Assembly: GCA_022823765.1 (NCBI GenBank)
Contig: JAJEHK010000128.1
Span: 1-35,890 of the forward strand
DNA length: 35,890 bases
Direction of reading: 5' to 3'
Source of the DNA: Alphaproteobacteria bacterium
GTDB lineage: Bacteria; Pseudomonadota; Alphaproteobacteria; SP197
Shown: positions 4,201 through 32,690 of the stretch, one piece after another
How the letters are laid out: each line of letters opens with the position of its first letter
Position numbering within the stretch: the first letter of the stretch is position 1
Notes under the pieces: model-generated
Seen by the model: the letters and a program-made list of their open reading frames with translations, nothing else
What the model was told of the DNA's origin: nothing
Databases searched by the model: none
Translations under genes and position numbers: made by a program

Positions 4201-6013
4201 CATGAATCCAGATCACAGTCCCGTCGTCGGGACGGATCTCGTAGGGTGCTTCCTCGATGACCACCAGGCCCATGTGTTCGAGCATGGGCATGATCCCGGA
4301 CAACGGCACCGCCGTCCCACGGTGATAGACCTTGAAGTTGAGGTTGCCCTCGGCGGCGTCGACACGGCGATAGAGGTTCATCGCGATATCATCGTCGTCC
4401 ATGGACTCCATGCGCTGGATATCGGCGACCGCAAGGCGGGTGCTGAACATCTCCTTGTAGCCACCGGGGATCGCTGGACGGTAGCGGTGGAAGAGGACAG
4501 CCCCCCGGCCCTCGCCGAATTCCTCGGTCAACGCATCCTGGAGATCGTCGTCCCAGGTTCTCGACGCTGCGGTGAGTCGCCTTTCGATGGCATCGGGTTC
4601 GCCCTCGACCCTGTCCTTGTCCGGGGTGTGGACAATGAACTGGGCCCGGGCCATCGGCGCATCGGACACCTGGGTCTGAACGTCCACCGAACTGCCGTTG
4701 AGTTCCTCGAGAAGGATGGCCTCCATCCTGTGGCGCAAATCGGTGGAATAGCGTTCACGGGGAATGTAGACGAGGCAGGAAACGAACTGGCCATAGGAAT
4801 CCCGTCTCAGGAAGAGGCGGATGCGCTGGCGATGCTCAAGATGCAGGATACCCCGGGAGAAGGTTTCCAGGGTGTCGACTTCGATCTGGAACAGTTCGTC
4901 ACGCGGAAACGTGTCGAGGATGTGTTCAAGCGCCTTGGCATTGTGGCTGCCCGGAGTCGCTCCCGAACGCTCCATCACCATCGCAACTTTCCGGCGCAAC
5001 AGGGGGATCTGGGTTGGCGAGGTGTTGTAGGCGGACGATGTCAGCAGACCGAGGAAGCGGTACTCACCAACGACCTCGCCCGCATCGTTGAATCGGCGCA
5101 GGCCGATGTAGTCCATGAAGACCGGCCGATGGACGTCCGAGCGTGTCCATGCCTTGGAAATGATGAAGAGTTCCCGGTGTTCCAGGTACCGCACGAAGTG
5201 TTCGGGCAACGCGTCTTCGTGACGCTTGCGGCTTTCCTCGGTGATCTCACGCAGGATTCCGCGATTTTCCTCCTCGACGATATGGGCAAACACCGCGCCA
5301 TCACGCCGTTCGAAACGGTACTCCCGGTAGCCTAGAAAGGTGAAATGGTCGTCCAGCAGCCACTTCAGAAAGGCAAGGCCTTCCTCAAGTTCTCCGGCCG
5401 ACACGGGTGGCGGCGCGGTCTCGAGTGCCGCCATGTGCCGTTCGAGACATGTCACCATGGGACGCCAGTCCTCGACCGCAGCACGCACCTGGCCAAGAAC
5501 GTGGTGCAGTCGTTTAACGATCTCCCGGTGACGTTCCACGGGCTGCTGGGTGATCTCGACGTGAAGAACCGACTCCGCCGATCCGCTGTCAATCCCAGTC
5601 AGGACGCCCTCATCGTCGCGGGTAACGTGAATCACCGGGTGTATGAGCAGGAGCACCGGGATCCCGAGCACATTGAGTGCCGCGACGACGGAGTCCACGA
5701 GGAACGGCATGTCGTCGTTGACAATCTCGATCACCGTGTGGGTCGACTGCCAGCCGTCCTCTTCGGGATCCGGATCGAACACCCGGACCTTCGCCCCGCC
5801 GGCGCGGCGGTGGCGGAAGAACTGCCACAGGGAAGCCACCTCTCCGTAGAGGTTCTCCGTCGACATGCCGTCGATGTCTTCGGCGATGACGCCGCCAAGG
5901 AAATTCTCCGTGAACCGGGCCACGTGATCGGCCTCGGCCGCGAATCCGCTACGGACCAGGCGCACCACTTCGTCGATGCGTTCAGTCAACTGATGGTGAT
6001 CCCGCTGCCGCAT
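1220..6013 (-). CDS. gdh2: NAD-specific glutamate dehydrogenase, large (GDH_2) type
   Basis: A protein of 1597 residues, the size of the 180-kDa class of NAD-glutamate dehydrogenase (glutamate to 2-oxoglutarate plus ammonia, catabolic direction). The long N-terminal part (about 1–700) has the regulatory ACT-like regions of this class. The catalytic core carries GGPVARGGIRWSDR and then PVGSKGGF with the catalytic Lys at about residue 838. The dinucleotide domain shows EGGNLGATQAGRIEYA and DNSGGVDCSDHEVNIKI. I place the start at the ATG at 6013 because GGAGGGGG lies 6 bases before it; a GTG five codons upstream (6028) is also in frame but would put that ribosome site inside the gene. Downstream, its TGA overlaps the ATG of the GhrA-like gene. 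Several long open frames on the opposite strand are GC-driven shadows. Confidence 0.95.
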   Translation of the reverse strand: MRQRDHHQLTERIDEVVRLVRSGFAAEADHVARFTENFLGGVIAEDIDGMSTENLYGEVASLWQFFRHRRAGGAKVRVFDPDPEEDGWQSTHTVIEIVNDDMPFLVDSVVAALNVLGIPVLLLIHPVIHVTRDDEGVLTGIDSGSAESVLHVEITQQPVERHREIVKRLHHVLGQVRAAVEDWRPMVTCLERHMAALETAPPPVSAGELEEGLAFLKWLLDDHFTFLGYREYRFERRDGAVFAHIVEEENRGILREITEESRKRHEDALPEHFVRYLEHRELFIISKAWTRSDVHRPVFMDYIGLRRFNDAGEVVGEYRFLGLLTSSAYNTSPTQIPLLRRKVAMVMERSGATPGSHNAKALEHILDTFPRDELFQIEVDTLETFSRGILHLEHRQRIRLFLRRDSYGQFVSCLVYIPRERYSTDLRHRMEAILLEELNGSSVDVQTQVSDAPMARAQFIVHTPDKDRVEGEPDAIERRLTAASRTWDDDLQDALTEEFGEGRGAVLFHRYRPAIPGGYKEMFSTRLAVADIQRMESMDDDDIAMNLYRRVDAAEGNLNFKVYHRGTAVPLSGIMPMLEHMGLVVIEEAPYEIRPDDGTVIWIHDFRVQLEHGWQVDVAEVRQRFHETFARVWSGEVEDDHFNDLVLIGLDWRQVVILRAYAKFLMQTNAPFSQAYVEQTMAANPAIVRLLVDFFETRFDPDNQARAHVRGIALRDRIIEALDGVESLDQDRILRRYLNLIESTLRTNFYQTDAAGAVRPYVSFKFDSQMIHGLPEPRPWREIFVYSARVEAVHLRGGPVARGGIRWSDRLEDFRTEVLGLVKAQMVKNAVIVPVGSKGGFVVKRPPPASAGRDALQAEGIACYRTFMAGMLDVTDNISGGHVVTRERLVRHDDDDPYLVVAADKGTATFSDIANDVAARYGHWLGDAFASGGSAGYDHKAMAITAKGAWEAVRRHFREIGKDVECEDFTVIGIGDMMGDVFGNGMLLSRHIRLIGAFNHMHVFIDPDPDAEAGWKERKRLFDLARSTWADYDTACLSEGGAIYERSAKSVTLSPQARKALGIAEETLTPAELIHAMLKADVELLWNGGIGTYIKAAQESDAEVGDRANDSVRVNGREVGARVVGEGGNLGATQAGRIEYALAGGRINTDAIDNSGGVDCSDHEVNIKILLGDVVEAGDMTVKQRDRLLERMTGEVAGLVLRSNYLQTQALSIAEVQGPALTDELVRLMRALEHEGLLDRRIEGLPDDEELGEWRSRGRHFTRPELSVLLAWAKMDLYAELLASDLPDDPDLQDDLVTYFPVLLRKDHREHILDHRLRREIVATLTTNSIINRAGITFVRRLAEETGHDFADIARAYTVARDSFSLREIWVGIETLDNQVHAHVQSAMLNETIFLIERVTVWMLHHRQHPMAIGETTRAFRPQVMALKDNLPDLVSKRRRKSIGRAYKRFAKEGVPDDIAAPVANLRTLASACDVIETANVMEIDVIDAATVFFEVGEIFGADWMRDALARLPVDNRWDRLAQQALFEDSYLKQRRISLAVLATGEPAPAATARWIRDNQARVARAGAIMNDLKSAGSPGSFAMASVASRALASLAE

Positions 6014-6711: not shown

Positions 6712-6784
6712 GGCGATTGATCGATGGCGACAGGCCCGATCCGCATGAATACTATGGCGGGAATCGTGGAACAGGAAGAATGCC

Positions 6785-7786
6785 ATGAGTGACACCACGG
6801 ATGACGGGGTACCCGAAGCGCGCAAGCTCGCCTGGGGAGCGGTGTTCCGCCACCGCTATGCAGGCGTGGCGACGTTCATGCGCCAGGAGTTGCGGGAGGA
6901 CCCCGATACCTGGGGCGATATCGACATCGGAATCGCGGGCGTCCCCTTCGACGGGGCTGTGACGAACCGTCCCGGAGCCCGCCACGGACCCCGGGCCCTG
7001 CGCGAGCAGTCCACCCTCATGGGCCGCATCAACCACAAGACCGGCGTACGTCCCTTCGACACGGCAAGGGTCGCCGATATCGGCGACGTCATGATCGAGG
7101 GAGTCTACGCACTCGAACGCGCCATGGGTGACATCGAGTCGTTCTACGACCGAGTGGCGGCGGCCGGCGTGATGCCGCTTACCGCAGGCGGAGACCACTC
7201 CATCACCCTGCCGATCATGCGGGCACTGAAGCACTCGCGGGGTGAACCGATGGGACTCATTCACTTCGATGCCCATTGCGACACCGGCCCCGAACTGTTC
7301 GGCCACAAGCACCACCACGGCGGTCCCTTCCGGGTTGCCGTGGAAGACGGGGCCCTCGACCCGAAACGCACCATCCAGATCGGAATCCGCGGACCCGCGG
7401 AAGTCCTTTGGGACTTCAGCTACGAGAGTGGCATGACCGTCATTCATATCGAGGAGTTCTATGCCATGGGCATCGAGGCCGTCATCGCCCGGGCGCACGA
7501 GGTCGTGGGCGATGGTCCGGTCTACGTCAGTTTCGATGTCGACGGCCTCGACCCCGTCTACGCACCGGGGACGGGCACGCCTGAAGTCGGCGGTTACACG
7601 ACATGGGAGGCCCAGCAGGTGCTGCGCGGGCTGATGGGCATCGATATCATCGGCGCGGACGTCGTCGAGGTGTCGCCTCCCTTCGACAGCGCCTCCATCA
7701 CCTCGCTCAACGGTGCCCAGATGATGTGGGAACTGCTCTGCCTCATGGCTGACCGGGTGGAACGGCGGGAGAATTCCACCGGTTGA
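6785..7786 (+). CDS. speB: Agmatinase/ureohydrolase family protein
   Basis: A 333-residue ureohydrolase (arginase fold) with all manganese ligands: GGDHSI, HFDAHCDTG, and SFDVDGLDPVYAPGTGTPE. These enzymes split the guanidino group of agmatine, guanidinobutyrate or related compounds to give urea and an amine. Agmatine is the commonest substrate for this subgroup but guanidinobutyrate is a real alternative, so the symbol is tentative. AGGAAG lies about 9 bases before the ATG. Divergent from the Nudix gene. Its stop is followed within 60 bases by an SOS-box promoter for the next gene, so the two probably do not form one operon. Confidence 0.85.
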   Translation: MSDTTDDGVPEARKLAWGAVFRHRYAGVATFMRQELREDPDTWGDIDIGIAGVPFDGAVTNRPGARHGPRALREQSTLMGRINHKTGVRPFDTARVADIGDVMIEGVYALERAMGDIESFYDRVAAAGVMPLTAGGDHSITLPIMRALKHSRGEPMGLIHFDAHCDTGPELFGHKHHHGGPFRVAVEDGALDPKRTIQIGIRGPAEVLWDFSYESGMTVIHIEEFYAMGIEAVIARAHEVVGDGPVYVSFDVDGLDPVYAPGTGTPEVGGYTTWEAQQVLRGLMGIDIIGADVVEVSPPFDSASITSLNGAQMMWELLCLMADRVERRENSTG

Positions 7787-7812
7787 ACCTGCGTCCGGAC
7801 ACACCATGTTAT

Positions 7813-7827
7813 GTTCCGGCAATGTTC
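7813..7827 (+). promoter_or_regulatory. LexA (SOS) box, GTTC-N7-GTTC
   Basis: GTTCCGGCAATGTTC is a perfect match to the direct-repeat operator GTTC-N7-GTTC known for alphaproteobacterial LexA. It sits 26 bases after the agmatinase stop and 18 bases before the ATG at 7846. A possible -10 element TATGTT (7810–7815) overlaps its left half, the geometry expected of a repressor site. I infer SOS control of the following small gene. Confidence 0.6.
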
Positions 7828-7845
7828 CGGAGGCCACCCTGCGTC

Positions 7846-8172
7846 ATGCATGGTACCAGACAGCGTTTCATCGAGGCGTCGGACACGGAATGGGACAGGG
7901 TGACGGAACTGGCGCGGATCGCCGGTGAATCCGTCAGTCGCTTCCTCATCAGGAAGGCGACCGCACGGGAAGTGGTGCCGGCAGCGGTCCTGCGACGGGC
8001 CATGCGGGAAATCCTCATTCTCTCCAGCCTCGAGGAACATCGCACACGGGAACTTGGCGCCGGAGAGCGGTTCGACCATGTTGCTCATGCCGTGGACACC
8101 TGGCTGGAGAGGGAAGACGACCTTGCGCATCTTGCCGATCCTGGCGCCGCCAACAGATGGCGGGCCCGATAA
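7846..8172 (+). CDS. Small ribbon-helix-helix-like protein, probably SOS-regulated
   Basis: A 108-residue protein of unknown function. The N-terminus (about residues 4–38) reads like a MobC/CopG-type ribbon-helix-helix: a short strand RQRFIEAS, helix TEWDRVTELARIAG, then ESVSRFLIRKA. The remainder is helical and charged, including a basic helix VLRRAMREILIL. There is no nuclease, kinase or toxin motif and no partner toxin gene beside it. The frame is open back to a TTG at 7783, but I choose the ATG at 7846 because a LexA box at 7813–7827 would otherwise lie inside the gene, and GGAGG (7829–7833) falls between box and start, at a somewhat long spacing of 12. A DNA-binding or damage-response role is inference only. 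Confidence 0.6.
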   Translation: MHGTRQRFIEASDTEWDRVTELARIAGESVSRFLIRKATAREVVPAAVLRRAMREILILSSLEEHRTRELGAGERFDHVAHAVDTWLEREDDLAHLADPGAANRWRAR

Positions 8173-8253
8173 GCGGAGACAGCGAAAATCTGCTTGCCCG
8201 CCGACTGTACCCGTAACAGACTGTCCAACCATCCCGACAGGGCAGTTCCGACC

Positions 8254-21173: not shown

Positions 21174-23135
21174 ATGTCCACCATGTTCCCTCAACTCTTC
21201 TCGCCGCTTTCCATCCGGAATGTGACCTTCAGGAACCGGATCTTCTCGACCGGTCACATGACGACTCTCGTCACCGGTTACAAGCCCAACGAGGAACTGG
21301 CGGCCTATCACGAGTCCCGCGCCAGGGGCGGGGCCGGGCTGGTGATCATCGAAGTAGCGCTGGTCCACGGCTCGGCGGTCTACACCTCCCACACCATCAT
21401 GGCCAACACCGACGACTGCATCCCCGGCTACCGGAACATCGCCCAGCGTGTGCACCGCCATGACTGCCGTGTCTTCGGGCAGCTCTTTCACCCGGGCCGC
21501 GAGATATTCGAATCGATCGATGGCAGTCTGCCGGTCGCCTGGGCGCCATCGTCGGTGCCCAACGAGCGCTTCCACATCATGCCCCGCGCCATGCCGCGCG
21601 CCATGATCCACGATGTGATCGACGGCTATGGAGATGCCGCCGTCAGACTCCGTGAAGGCGGCCTCGACGGGGTCGAGATCGTCGCCAGTCACGGATATCT
21701 CCCGGCACAGTTTCTCAATCCCCGGGTCAACGTGCGCGAGGACGAGTACGGCGGAACCCTGGAAAACCGCGTGCGATTCCTGCGTGAGATTGTCGACAAC
21801 ATTCGCGCCAAGGTGGGCAGCGACTATGTGGTCGGCCTCAGGATCACCGGCGACGAGCGTTCCCACGACGGCCCCGACGTAGAGACGGTAACCGCGGCCA
21901 TCAGCATGCTCGACGCCGGCGGCGGTCTCGACTACTTCAATGTCATCGCCGGCTCGTCGTCGTCACTCGGCGGATCCATCCACATCGTTCCGCCGATGTT
22001 CATCGAAAATGCCTACGTGGCGCCCTACGCCGCCACCATCCGCCAGAAGGTGTCGGTGCCCGTGTTTGTTGCCGGCAGGATCAACCAGCCACACCAGGCC
22101 GAGGAGATCGTCGCCAGCGGCCAAGCCGACATGGTGGGCATGACGCGGGCACAGATCTGCGATCCGCAACTGGCCAACAAGGCCCGGGAGGGACGCGTTG
22201 ACGACATCCGCGCCTGCATTGCCTGCAACCAGGCCTGCATCGGCCACATGCACATGGGAGTCGGCATCTCGTGCATCCAGCACCCCGAATCAGGCCGCGA
22301 ACTCGTCTATGGCAAGCGCAAGCCGGCAGCCGGCACGAAGAGGGTCCTGGTGGCGGGAGGCGGACCCGGCGGCATGAAGGCGGCAGCGGTGGCCGCGGAG
22401 CGCGGTCATCGGGTGACACTCTTTGAAGCGACGGACCGCCTGGGCGGACAGACGCTGCTGGCGCAGTCGCTCCCAGGCCGGGCTGAATTCGGTGGCATCG
22501 TCACCAATCTCTCACGGGAAATGGAACTGGCCGGCGTCGAGGTCATCAGGAACCGCAAGGTGACGCGCGAACTGGTCGACAGGGAGGCTCCCGATGCGGT
22601 CATCGTCGCCACGGGAGCGGTGCCGGCGCCGGTCGACATCGAGGGAGGCGACGACGCCCATGTCGTCGAGGCCTGGTCCGTGGTCAAGGGCGAGGCGAAC
22701 GTCGGTGGCAACGTGGTGATTGCCGACTGGCGATGCGACTGGATCGGCCTCGGTCTGGCCGAGCACCTAGCGCGCAATGGCTGCAACGTCACCCTGGCGG
22801 TTGACGGATACATGCCCGGCCAGACGATCCAGATGTATGTCCGCGATCACTGGGCCGGCATTCTCCAGAAACTGGGGGTGAAGGTCATTCCCTACGCCCG
22901 CCTCTTCGGCGCCGATTCCGACAGCGTCTACCTGCAGCACGCCACGAGTGGCGAAGCGATGATCGTCGAGGATGTCGACACGCTCGTCACGGCTCTCGGC
23001 CATCATTCCGTGACCGACCTTGCCGACGACCTGGAGGACTGGACGGGGGAGCTCCACCTTGTCGGGGACTGCCTTGCACCCAGAACCGCCGAGGAGGCTG
23101 TTCTCGAGGGGCTCAAGATAGCTGCGGAGATCTAG
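21174..23135 (+). CDS. FMN/4Fe-4S/FAD NADH:flavin oxidoreductase, N-methylproline (or trimethylamine) demethylase-like
   Basis: A 653-residue Old-Yellow-Enzyme type flavoprotein with two parts. The N-terminal TIM barrel (to about 340) has FSPLSIRNVTFRNRI, FGQLFHPGREI, ASHGYLPAQFLNPRVN (active-site His region) and YGGTLENRVRFLREIV. Cysteines 348, 351, 355 and 367 (CX2CX3CX11C) bind the 4Fe-4S cluster. The C-terminal part has a dinucleotide fold RVLVAGGGPGGMKAA and LFEATDRLGGQTLLAQ, and a late FAD segment LHLVGDCLAPRTAEEA. This layout is that of trimethylamine/dimethylamine dehydrogenase, 2,4-dienoyl-CoA reductase and the StcD-type N-methylproline demethylase; I favour the last but cannot prove it. 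GGAGG lies 6 bases before the ATG. The DUF924 gene follows after 3 bases. Confidence 0.82.
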   Translation: MSTMFPQLFSPLSIRNVTFRNRIFSTGHMTTLVTGYKPNEELAAYHESRARGGAGLVIIEVALVHGSAVYTSHTIMANTDDCIPGYRNIAQRVHRHDCRVFGQLFHPGREIFESIDGSLPVAWAPSSVPNERFHIMPRAMPRAMIHDVIDGYGDAAVRLREGGLDGVEIVASHGYLPAQFLNPRVNVREDEYGGTLENRVRFLREIVDNIRAKVGSDYVVGLRITGDERSHDGPDVETVTAAISMLDAGGGLDYFNVIAGSSSSLGGSIHIVPPMFIENAYVAPYAATIRQKVSVPVFVAGRINQPHQAEEIVASGQADMVGMTRAQICDPQLANKAREGRVDDIRACIACNQACIGHMHMGVGISCIQHPESGRELVYGKRKPAAGTKRVLVAGGGPGGMKAAAVAAERGHRVTLFEATDRLGGQTLLAQSLPGRAEFGGIVTNLSREMELAGVEVIRNRKVTRELVDREAPDAVIVATGAVPAPVDIEGGDDAHVVEAWSVVKGEANVGGNVVIADWRCDWIGLGLAEHLARNGCNVTLAVDGYMPGQTIQMYVRDHWAGILQKLGVKVIPYARLFGADSDSVYLQHATSGEAMIVEDVDTLVTALGHHSVTDLADDLEDWTGELHLVGDCLAPRTAEEAVLEGLKIAAEI

Positions 23136-28895: not shown

Positions 28896-29498
28896 TCACC
28901 GTTGAAGAAATCCGCCAAACCACCGTGCGACATCCTCAACCGTGTCGACATCCCCCAGGGTCCCGATCAGGGACGTCGTGCACGCCGCCGGGATGTTCTC
29001 CAGCGTGTCGGCCAGGGCGTGGCGCGTGGACCAGCGGACCCGGGAGAAAATGTCGGACTCGCGCAGACCCGGAGCCAGTCCGACAAGCCAGTACCCGCCA
29101 TCGTATGCCGGCCCGAAGACTGCCTCATGACGTCGAAGGGCCCTGAAGGCGCGACTGATGTGATGGCGATGCAACCCGGGAATGTCCGTGCCGACCATCA
29201 CCACAGGCCCCGGAGGCATGGCGGCAAAGGCGTTGTGCATCCTCTCGCCAAGGTCACGACCGGACTGGGCCATGGTCTCGAGCCCGCCAAACCGGCGCCG
29301 GCGCCTTTCCCCTCCCGAGGGCGCGACCGCGACCACGGTCGTCCACGGCCCCCTGGCCACGCGCCGGAGCGTACGCCGGAGCATGAGCCTGTAGACCGCA
29401 AGGGCGAAGCGGTCGCCGCAGGCTTCGGCCAGGCGGGTCTTGACCTCGCCGGCGACCGCCGGGCGGGCCATCACGACAACGCTGCGCGTCGCCTTCAT
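28896..29498 (-). CDS. TIGR04282 family glycosyltransferase (DUF2064)
   Basis: A 200-residue nucleotide-transferase-fold protein of the TIGR04282/DUF2064 family named after arsenosugar biosynthesis. Visible blocks are VVVMARPAVAGEVKTRLA at the start, GRDLGERMHNAFAAM, VVMVGTDIPGLHRHHI and the active-site block FGPAYDGGYWLVGL. The ATG at 29498 overlaps the stop of the upstream partner gene as ATGA; the open frame upstream of that ATG lies within the partner and is a shadow. The pair is almost always found together. Many pairs occur without arsenic genes, so arsenosugar synthesis is not implied here. The likely setting is the cytosol. Confidence 0.88.
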   Translation of the reverse strand: MKATRSVVVMARPAVAGEVKTRLAEACGDRFALAVYRLMLRRTLRRVARGPWTTVVAVAPSGGERRRRRFGGLETMAQSGRDLGERMHNAFAAMPPGPVVMVGTDIPGLHRHHISRAFRALRRHEAVFGPAYDGGYWLVGLAPGLRESDIFSRVRWSTRHALADTLENIPAACTTSLIGTLGDVDTVEDVARWFGGFLQR

Positions 29499-30175
29499 CC
29501 GTACATCCTCGCGATGAGCGAAGGTGGCACGCCGCAGAAGTAACAGGCAAGACAGAAGGCGTTCCTGATCACCCGGACGCCGTATCCGCCCCGACGGTAG
29601 CGGACAGCGCTGGTGTGAGCGTCGCAATCCAGGGTGACCAGCCTTCGGCGACCGATGCGCCGCACCATGTCGACATCCTCCATGATCGCCATGGACCTGA
29701 ATCCGCCCAGTGACTCGTAGAAGTTCGCGGAGATCAGCAGTCCCTGGTCTCCATAGGGCAACCCCAGGATGCGGCTTCTCAACCCGGCACACCGCTCGAC
29801 AAACCGGGCCCATGGCGCCGGATCGTCCAGGCGCAGGCGAAACACGCCGACGCGCCGGTCACCGTCAGGGCTGGCCATCAGATCCACAACAGCCTCTCGC
29901 CAGGCCGGCCCGAGAACCGTGTCGGCATGAAGAAACAGCAACCAGTCGCCCTTCGCCACGGCAGCGCCGGCCGCCAACTGGATGCCGCGGCCGCGCCGCG
30001 CCGACATCACTGTCGCGCCCCTCGAGCATGCCACATCGGTTGTACCGTCGCCCGATCCCCCGTCGACGACGATGATCTCGCCCGGAGCAGCACCACCGCG
30101 GTTCAGCCGGTCGATGACGCCTCCCAGACCGGCTGCGGCGTCGAGAGCGGGAATGATGACGGAAAGTCTCTTCAT
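29495..30175 (-). CDS. TIGR04283 family glycosyltransferase (GT2)
   Basis: A 226-residue family 2 glycosyltransferase: LSVIIPALDAAAGLGGVIDR at the start, IIVVDGGSGDGTTDVA for nucleotide-sugar binding, LLFLHADTVLGPAW with the DxD-like HAD motif, and LPYGDQGLLISANFYESLGG and IMEDVDMVRRIGRR as the acceptor and base region. It ends ACYFCGVPPSLIARMY, typical for TIGR04283. I use the ATG at 30175, since the conserved part begins there; ATGs at 30184 and 30187 are possible. It lies divergently from the SplB-like gene, and the SOS box (30220–30234) is in their shared spacer. Confidence 0.85.
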   Translation of the reverse strand: MKRLSVIIPALDAAAGLGGVIDRLNRGGAAPGEIIVVDGGSGDGTTDVACSRGATVMSARRGRGIQLAAGAAVAKGDWLLFLHADTVLGPAWREAVVDLMASPDGDRRVGVFRLRLDDPAPWARFVERCAGLRSRILGLPYGDQGLLISANFYESLGGFRSMAIMEDVDMVRRIGRRRLVTLDCDAHTSAVRYRRGGYGVRVIRNAFCLACYFCGVPPSLIARMYG

Positions 30176-30219
30176 CCGCGCCATCATAGCCCAATCGGAC
30201 TCTTGCCGGGGCCATGTTT

Positions 30220-30234
30220 GTTCTGGTATTGTTC
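30220..30234 (+). promoter_or_regulatory. LexA (SOS) box, GTTC-N7-GTTC, over the promoter of the SplB-like gene
   Basis: GTTCTGGTATTGTTC is a perfect match to the alphaproteobacterial LexA operator. It overlaps a candidate sigma-70 promoter: TTGCCG at 30203–30208, 18 bases, then TATTGT at 30227–30232. Transcription would begin about at the ATG at 30239, so the message may be leaderless. LexA binding here would block that -10 element. Confidence 0.7.
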
Positions 30235-30238
30235 TCAC

Positions 30239-31309
30239 ATGACCGACACCCGCCATCACAAGGGTCGTGCGGCCGTGACCAACCGGACCGGTCGCTTTGA
30301 AGCCATGCAGCGAGAAGCGTTCGATGACGGCTGGAACACCGGCGAGCAGGATCTTCCCCCGTTGCGGACTGAAGTGGCCGTCGATTCGAGCCGCAGCATT
30401 CTCACCCGCAACACGTCACCGGACATTCCCTTCGAGCATTCGATCAATCCCTATCGCGGATGCGAGCACGGGTGCATCTACTGCTATGCGCGCCCGTCCC
30501 ATGCCTGGCTCGGTCTTTCTCCCGGCCTTGATTTCGAAACGAAACTCGTGATGAAACCGGACGCCGCCCTCCTGCTGCGCCGACACCTGGCACGTCCCTC
30601 CTACCGGCCGAAGGTCATTTCTCTGGGCAGCAACACGGATCCCTACCAGCCGATCGAGCGCCGTTTCCGCATCACGCGTCAGATTCTCGAGGTCTTGAGC
30701 GAATGCCGACACCCGTGCGGCATCGTCACCAAGTCGTCCCTCATAGAGCGGGACCTCGATGTGCTGGCCCCCATGGCAGGAATGAACCTCGTCCGCGCCT
30801 TCATCTCCATCACCACGCTCGACCGCGCCCTTGCAAGACGCATGGAACCCCGCGCGCCCACGCCCCTGGTGCGCCTCAGGGCCATTGAGAGCCTGAGCGG
30901 GGCGGGGATTCCCACCGGAGTCATGGTGGCGCCGGTCATCCCTGGACTGAATGACCACGAGATCGAAACCATCATCAGGGACGCCGCCGCCGCCGGTGCG
31001 ACGAGCGCCAGCCATGTCCTGTTGCGCCTGCCGCTCGAGATCAGGGATCTGTTCCAGGAATGGCTGGCCACCCACGAGCCGGGCCGGGCTAAGCGGGTCA
31101 TGTCACTCATCAGGCAGTGCCGAGGCGGCAGGGATTACGATTCAGGATGGGGCAGCAGAATGACGGGAACGGGACCTGTTGCGGACCTCGTGTCACGCAG
31201 GATCTCAATGGCGTGCAAGCGATACGGTCTCGAACGACGTTCCTGGTCCCTCGACACGACACAATTCATTCGCCCGTCCGCCGATCCCCGGCAGCCGTCG
31301 CTCTTCTGA
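30239..31309 (+). CDS. PA0069 family radical SAM protein (SplB-like)
   Basis: A 356-residue radical SAM enzyme. The cluster motif CX3CX2C is in GCEHGCIYCYARPSHAWLGL at about residues 77–96, followed by LDFETKLVMKPDAALLLRR, VISLGSNTDPYQPIERRFRI and VTKSSLIERDLDVLAPMA. These blocks are those of the PA0069 group, related to spore photoproduct lyase (SplB), which repairs a UV thymine lesion in spores; non-spore-forming bacteria carry this relative with unknown substrate. The C-terminus ends RQPSLF. The start codon (ATG 30239) lies only 4 bases after a perfect LexA box and has no Shine-Dalgarno sequence; a GTG at 30275 is an alternative. The frame open upstream is a shadow. An SOS-induced repair role is inferred from family plus operator. 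Confidence 0.85.
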   Translation: MTDTRHHKGRAAVTNRTGRFEAMQREAFDDGWNTGEQDLPPLRTEVAVDSSRSILTRNTSPDIPFEHSINPYRGCEHGCIYCYARPSHAWLGLSPGLDFETKLVMKPDAALLLRRHLARPSYRPKVISLGSNTDPYQPIERRFRITRQILEVLSECRHPCGIVTKSSLIERDLDVLAPMAGMNLVRAFISITTLDRALARRMEPRAPTPLVRLRAIESLSGAGIPTGVMVAPVIPGLNDHEIETIIRDAAAAGATSASHVLLRLPLEIRDLFQEWLATHEPGRAKRVMSLIRQCRGGRDYDSGWGSRMTGTGPVADLVSRRISMACKRYGLERRSWSLDTTQFIRPSADPRQPSLF

Positions 31310-31370: not shown

Positions 31371-32690
31371 ATGGATCACGGTGACCAGCTGACCGACATC
31401 ACGATCGTCGTGACTGCCGCACTCGCCTGTGGTCTGCTGCTGGGACGGTTTCGCCAGCCGGCCATCGTCGGCTACATCCTCGCCGGTGTCGTTCTCGGCC
31501 CGTCTGTGATGGGATTCGTCGAGGACCGGGAACAGATCAACTTCCTTGCCGAACTCGGCGTTCTGCTTCTCCTGTTCAGCATCGGCATGGAGCTCGATGT
31601 CTCGAATTTCCGCTCCGTCATCAGGTTTTCCTTCATCGTCACCGGCCTGCAGATCGCCATCGCAACGACGGTCATCCTGCTCTGCTCGTGGCCACTGGGA
31701 TGGCCGTGGGAGCTGAGCGTTCTGGTGGGGTTTGGCGTGGCGCTGTCGTCTACCGCCGTCACCATCAAGCTCCTCGAGGACGTCGGCGAAATCGACAGCG
31801 AGACCGGTCGCCGGGCCGTTGGAATTCTCATTGCCCAGGATCTGGCATTCATTCCGATGATGCTGTTCGTATCGGCCATGGGCACGGAGGAGGACATCAC
31901 GTTCAACTCCGTCATGCCGGTGATCGGGTCCGTCCTGATCCTGCTTGTCCTGCTGTGGTTCCTTGCCCGCAGACGCGGCATCAATTTTCCCGTCGAGGCC
32001 CTGGCCCGCGGGCAGGCGGACCTGATCGCAGTCGGCGTGATGGCCCTGTGCTTCGGGGCAGCCGCGATCAGCGGTCTCTTCGGCATTTCCACAGCCTATG
32101 GCGCCTTCCTTGCCGGCCTTGTGCTCGGCGCCAGCACGGACCGGGCGACCCTTCTGCGCGTCACCCTGCCCCTCCAGGGCGTGTTGCTCATGGTGTTCTT
32201 CCTGTCGATCGGCCTCCTGATCGACGTCACGTTCATCCTCGAGAATCTCGAGGCCATCTTCCTCATGCTTCTTCTCGTGACCCTGGGCAAGACGGCGATG
32301 AACGTCGGCATCCTGAGGCTCCTCAAGGAACCGTGGCCACGCGCGTGGCTGGGCGGTGTCGCCCTGGGGCAGGTCGGGGAATTCTCCTTCGTCCTGGTAG
32401 CTCTCGGCCTTTCGACGGGGGCCGTCGACCAGGAGGGATATCGCCTGTTCATCGCCGTCATCGCGCTCAGCCTCATCATCTCGCCGGTGTGGCTCAACAG
32501 CGCCCGCAGAATCCAGTCCCTCGCCTCCAACGCCGAAACGTTGCGTGAACTCATGGAGCGGCTCTATCCCTTTGCCGGCGTCAGCGCAGACCGTGGCATG
32601 GCATGGGTGCGCAGGACGCAAGCTGCCGTGCGTCGCCGCAAGCGTTCTCCGGCACTCCAGGACAAGAGGAACGATGGGCCCGGTTCCTGA
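31371..32690 (+). CDS. CPA2 family cation:proton antiporter
   Basis: A 439-residue membrane protein with about 12–13 helices. Recognisable blocks are LLGRFRQPAIVGYILAGVVL, ELGVLLLLFSIGMELDV, GFGVALSSTAVTIKLLEDVG, GRRAVGILIAQDLAFIPMM and FGISTAYGAFLAGLVLGAS, ending with a short basic cytoplasmic tail. It belongs to the monovalent cation:proton antiporter 2 group (KefB/YbaL-like), but it lacks the C-terminal TrkA-N/RCK regulatory domain that many of them carry. It probably exchanges K+ or Na+ for protons across the inner membrane. Its 3' end overlaps the rnhB start by 17 bases. It starts 62 bases after the SplB-like gene. Confidence 0.88.
   Translation: MDHGDQLTDITIVVTAALACGLLLGRFRQPAIVGYILAGVVLGPSVMGFVEDREQINFLAELGVLLLLFSIGMELDVSNFRSVIRFSFIVTGLQIAIATTVILLCSWPLGWPWELSVLVGFGVALSSTAVTIKLLEDVGEIDSETGRRAVGILIAQDLAFIPMMLFVSAMGTEEDITFNSVMPVIGSVLILLVLLWFLARRRGINFPVEALARGQADLIAVGVMALCFGAAAISGLFGISTAYGAFLAGLVLGASTDRATLLRVTLPLQGVLLMVFFLSIGLLIDVTFILENLEAIFLMLLLVTLGKTAMNVGILRLLKEPWPRAWLGGVALGQVGEFSFVLVALGLSTGAVDQEGYRLFIAVIALSLIISPVWLNSARRIQSLASNAETLRELMERLYPFAGVSADRGMAWVRRTQAAVRRRKRSPALQDKRNDGPGS

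Follow-up and report, generated by a model that had tools for sequence, protein, structure and literature searches.

The window analyzed here, a stretch of 35,890 nucleotides of α-proteobacterial DNA, contains a gene for a radical SAM protein of the PA0069 family, with a LexA operator directly upstream of its start codon and a glycosyltransferase gene divergent to it. The features at this locus, in positions of the window, are as follows.

29495 to 30175, minus strand: divergent gene for a TIGR04283-family glycosyltransferase (207 bits, cut-off 182)
30203 to 30208, plus strand: candidate -35 hexamer TTGCCG (4/6 matches to TTGACA), identical in three other species, L008, L011 and L017
30220 to 30234, plus strand: LexA operator GTTCTGGTATTGTTC (GTTC-N7-GTTC), an exact match to the α-proteobacterial box
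30224 to 30232, plus strand: candidate extended -10 element TG-G-TATTGT, within the operator (TG at 30224-30225, hexamer TATTGT at 30227-30232)
30239 to 31309, plus strand: gene for a PA0069-family radical SAM protein of 356 amino acids with a predicted fold like that of spore photoproduct lyase (SPL) (NF033668; Radical_SAM, PF04055)

The radical SAM protein matches NCBIfam model NF033668 (rSAM_PA0069) with 521 bits (cut-off 360) over profile positions 1-348 of 348. It is a full-length and ordinary member, with no difference found from the family, and the assignment made in the earlier note therefore holds. The Rv2578c family of radical SAM proteins (NF038135) is homologous over residues 51-292, with a score of 230 bits that falls below the cut-off of that model (430 bits). 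The cluster motif is C75-x3-C79-x2-C82, and its three cysteines are invariant in 195 members of the PA0069 family. Two other start codons were considered and rejected. An upstream ATG at 29927, suggested by open reading frame calling, would give an extension that overlaps the divergent glycosyltransferase gene. An in-frame candidate 42 bases before the start of the profile match is ATG in L008 and L011, TTG in the window, and is not a start codon in L017.

The operator is separated from the ATG at 30239 by 4 bases; its sequence, its coordinates and this gap are exactly those given in the earlier note. It is identical in L008, L011 and L017, which are species of the same genus. The operator overlaps the candidate extended -10 element of the promoter of the radical SAM gene, as had been claimed. 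The two candidate hexamers are separated by a spacer of 18 bases, and the distance from the final base of the -10 hexamer to the A of the ATG is 7 bases. The -10 hexamer is kept in L008 and L011, and in L017 it is found one base farther from the ATG. A scan for consensus promoters returned none above threshold in this region, the hexamer pair being a weak match, and conservation in the three related species supports the candidate promoter.

Four exact GTTC-N7-GTTC sequences occur in the window, compared with 1.10 expected (sd 0.87). The three other matches lie at 4678-4692 (minus strand), 7813-7827 (plus strand) and 21987-22001 (plus strand). The first and last of these are within long open reading frames and the second is within minus-strand open reading frames (6752-7837 and 7594-8232); all three probably reflect chance. 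The whole genome (3.5 Mb) holds 144 matches to the pattern versus 46 to its reversed form, and a lone match in the window is therefore weak evidence.

Much stronger evidence comes from related genes. When 300 bp upstream of PA0069-family genes were scanned at 30 loci, the window's own included, perfect GTTC-N7-GTTC boxes were found at 29, and the remaining locus carries a box with one mismatch. In a wider survey, a perfect α-proteobacterial box is present upstream of 78 of 84 α-proteobacterial members, representing 30 of 32 families, whereas only 3 of 525 control pieces (300 bp each, taken from gene bodies and downstream DNA) contain one. Among 80 named genomes taken as a second set, 68 have a perfect box and another 6 a box with a single mismatch; the two sets share at least one contig (L148, which agrees with G010:C38 in both length and range). 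The enrichment upstream of orthologues that direct SOS control would call for is seen in both sets.

Members of the family outside the α-proteobacteria carry other boxes. The α-proteobacterial box is found upstream of none of the 31 non-α members. A perfect CTGT-N8-ACAG sequence precedes 22 of these 31, compared with 0 of 155 control pieces, and is found upstream of none of the α-proteobacterial members. A perfect TTAG-N6-TACTA sequence, which we take to be the Xanthomonas-type LexA motif, is found upstream of L120, a member of family f69. Seven non-α members (L118, L125, L129, L130, L135, L139 and L147) have none of the tested LexA motifs upstream; these may have lost SOS control or may use a different LexA motif.

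The host carries the same box upstream of its own lexA gene (GTTCTAGTAAAGTTC, contig C137) and its own recA gene (GTTCACATAATGTTC, contig C197). Because the motif upstream of PA0069-family genes tracks the LexA specificity of each group, LexA control is indicated, and other explanations are hard to sustain. Direct SOS control of the gene, as proposed in the earlier note, is therefore strongly supported by these comparisons, and LexA would be expected to bind the operator. The operator is real and functional-looking, and the gene is otherwise ordinary.

The position of the operator relative to the start codon bears on how the gene is translated. In the window and in L008, L011 and L017, the operator and the ATG are 4 to 5 bases apart, and a Shine-Dalgarno sequence is lacking. 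This form, with the box upon the -10 element, occurs in only these four species among those surveyed. In many families the distances peak with the operator beginning 38-40 bases before the ATG, a spacing at which the TTG within GTTCTTG could serve as a -35 element. A TANNNT hexamer is located 12 bases before the ATG at 49% of loci (family-averaged), compared with 4% on average at other offsets. Within the second set, loci at a distance of 37-41 bases (n = 34) have this hexamer in 71% of cases and a Shine-Dalgarno sequence in 3%, whereas those with a distance of at least 70 bases (n = 17) have a Shine-Dalgarno sequence in 94% and never a TANNNT hexamer at that place. Most f23 genomes have an operator-to-ATG distance of 27, and in these we read the operator as lying between the -35 and -10 hexamers. 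For part of the f50 loci it is uncertain which of several in-frame ATGs is the start codon.

The fixed spacing of 38-40 bases, the TANNNT hexamer at 12 bases and the lack of a Shine-Dalgarno sequence together imply leaderless mRNAs. For the window gene, the end of the candidate -10 hexamer 7 bases before the ATG predicts that transcription begins at the start codon. The earlier suggestion that the gene is possibly leaderless is thus backed by geometry, by conservation and by the absent Shine-Dalgarno sequence, and we regard a leaderless start as well supported at the sequence level. In Sinorhizobium meliloti, 171 transcription starts were assigned to leaderless transcripts that begin at AUG (PMC3616915), which makes this mode plausible in α-proteobacteria. 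We infer that during evolution the operator has occupied various promoter positions while the ATG stayed at +1.

A different arrangement is found at several α-proteobacterial loci, where the leader is longer or a Shine-Dalgarno sequence occurs, even within the same genus. A second promoter form was observed at five loci of the window's genus (L003, L005, L007, L009 and L010), where the box lies ~21-22 bp before the ATG and a GGAG-type Shine-Dalgarno sequence is present; taken over the other species of the genus with such a sequence, the spacing is ~21-27 bp. The window gene could accordingly be bound by LexA and yet have a short leader, or initiate a few bases away from the 5' end, and so not be truly leaderless. 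The weakness of the promoter hexamers and the evident ability of this lineage to use a leader are compatible with such an arrangement. However, the short operator-to-ATG gap without a Shine-Dalgarno sequence is found both in the window and in the three species closest to it, and within the family the two classes, distinguished by spacing and by the presence of a Shine-Dalgarno sequence, hardly overlap. We therefore consider a short leader doubtful, and favor a leaderless transcript.

The function of the protein was approached through its predicted structure. An AlphaFold2 model of the window protein (pLDDT 86.7) was compared with known structures, and the best Foldseek match is SPL (E 1.6e-9). 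In structural alignment, SPL entries (PDB 4fhc and 4fhf) rank first with Z scores of 19.3-19.8, and the next entry scores 15.1. The best alignment (Z 19.8) covers 272 residues at an rmsd of 3.7 and 14% identity and extends over model residues 1-335. The predicted fold therefore resembles SPL over nearly the whole chain, including the N-terminal part, and the two proteins have the CxxxCxxC motif in common.

Residues Cys140 and Tyr98 of SPL act in hydrogen transfer, and the titles of SPL entries in the PDB name C140 and Y98 mutants. SPL has a conserved catalytic cysteine at position 140, whereas the PA0069 family has no counterpart: among 195 members, conserved cysteines are confined to the cluster motif, the best other column reaching 74/195. 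Cys140 aligns with Asn132 of the window protein or, one column off, with Ser/Thr131. When profiles were compared using a fragment of SPL, the alignment was limited to the C-terminal half of the barrel, so this residue equivalence rests on the sequence alignment; the argument from conserved cysteines is independent of the exact alignment of Cys140. At the position of Tyr98, adjacent to the last cysteine of the cluster motif, the window protein has Tyr83, and 149 of 195 members have Phe. SPL was absent from the matches listed when PDB sequences were searched, whether the query was the window protein by itself or the alignment.

The family might nonetheless be a true lyase of the spore photoproduct type, repairing 5-thyminyl-5,6-dihydrothymine in vegetative cells. 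The clear margin by which SPL is the best structural match, N-terminal part included, and the presence of the radical SAM cluster motif fit this assignment. SOS control would suit the repair of UV damage, and splB is interpreted in this way in a previous study (PMC3323433). Set against it are the lack of any additional conserved cysteine, the predominance of Phe at the Tyr98 position and the failure of sequence profiles to reach SPL in the PDB. Furthermore, spore photoproduct forms mainly in dry, spore-state DNA. The PA0069 family also differs from SPL in being found in proteobacteria, which make no Bacillus-type spores. We consider a true lyase improbable. Because the scaffold is the same but one defining feature is missing, the name SPL is unwarranted without an assay.

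We prefer the reading in which an enzyme with the SPL fold acts on DNA, probably by a chemistry other than that of SPL. It probably does not use the cysteine-based hydrogen transfer of SPL, in which case either its substrate or its radical-quenching step should differ. The earlier note had proposed a lesion-repair activity outside spore formers: the predicted SPL fold speaks for this proposal, the likeness to the lyase does not extend to its catalytic cysteine, and repair itself would follow from regulation and fold taken together. On these two grounds a role in DNA repair is likely, and it is our best guess, with DNA as the presumed substrate.

The neighboring genes offer a further way to account for the operator. 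The operator lies ~45 bp from the start of the glycosyltransferase gene, in an intergenic region common to both genes, and could affect the glycosyltransferase too. More than 20 relatives (including L001, L003-L013, L015, L017, L018, L020 and L027-L030), belonging to many α-proteobacterial families, have this divergent gene in the corresponding place. Such persistence of the pair around a common intergenic region would fit an operator that mainly served the glycosyltransferase, with the radical SAM gene a bystander. However, the spacing between the operator and the start codon of the radical SAM gene is fixed, so an operator for the glycosyltransferase only is unlikely, and genomes outside the α-proteobacteria also have a box upstream of the radical SAM gene, with other LexA motifs. 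We judge a bystander role very improbable. A chance match, for which the commonness of single matches in this genome might argue, is refuted by the near-universal conservation of the box upstream of orthologues (78/84; 68/80).

On the other side of the radical SAM gene, 61 bases after its stop codon, is a gene for a CPA2/MagA-like antiporter (31371-32690, plus strand). An antiporter gene is also located downstream in L008, L011, L017 and L009. The antiporter gene might be on the same SOS transcript.

SOS control of such genes is known in kind. PA0069 itself presumably belongs to the SOS regulon, and radical SAM enzymes are not light-driven. LexA control of splB was predicted for α- and β-proteobacteria in 2012 (Sanchez-Alberola 2012, PMC3323433), in a study that labels the function of splB as photoreactivation. 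COG1533 splB is also placed in the SOS network of Bacteroidetes (PMC8565304), and the authors state that splB is SOS regulated in several species, citing Cirz 2006 on Pseudomonas aeruginosa. As described there, a LexA operator likewise directly precedes the COG1533 radical SAM gene in these systems. The passages on splB in the two papers do not discuss a leaderless architecture, the position of the operator or the missing lyase cysteine. Literature searches combining PA0069 with LexA or radical SAM, whose coverage stopped short of the original descriptions of the Pseudomonas and Caulobacter regulons, found no paper. A search for leaderless transcripts combined with LexA in the present sense also found none, and an earlier report is possible. 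The leaderless geometry and the missing lyase cysteine seem to be the less known points.

Our account of the locus as a whole, which we consider probable, is that of an ordinary SOS gene with a leaderless mRNA, encoding an SPL-fold enzyme that most likely acts on a DNA lesion. LexA bound at 30220-30234 would cover the -10 region and block RNA polymerase. RecA on damaged DNA would trigger LexA self-cleavage, whereupon the gene would be transcribed from a start at the first base of the ATG (30239) or no more than one base away. The resulting leaderless mRNA would be translated without a Shine-Dalgarno sequence, and its radical SAM product would most likely reverse or process a DNA lesion without light.

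More tentatively, the family may represent a radical SAM enzyme, SOS-induced and widespread among proteobacteria that form no spores, in many of them made from a leaderless mRNA, that acts on a DNA lesion other than the spore photoproduct or by a cysteine-free route; we regard this as possible, at somewhat less than even confidence. If so, a direct-reversal repair pathway would have gone unrecognized in a gene family that is under LexA boxes almost everywhere surveyed. Because the operator tracks the LexA motif of each group and the family lacks the catalytic cysteine found in its only characterized relative, the question of which lesion is involved becomes concrete and testable. The fixed distance between operator and ATG would also make these genes a clean example, across the whole family, of leaderless promoters that incorporate a repressor site.
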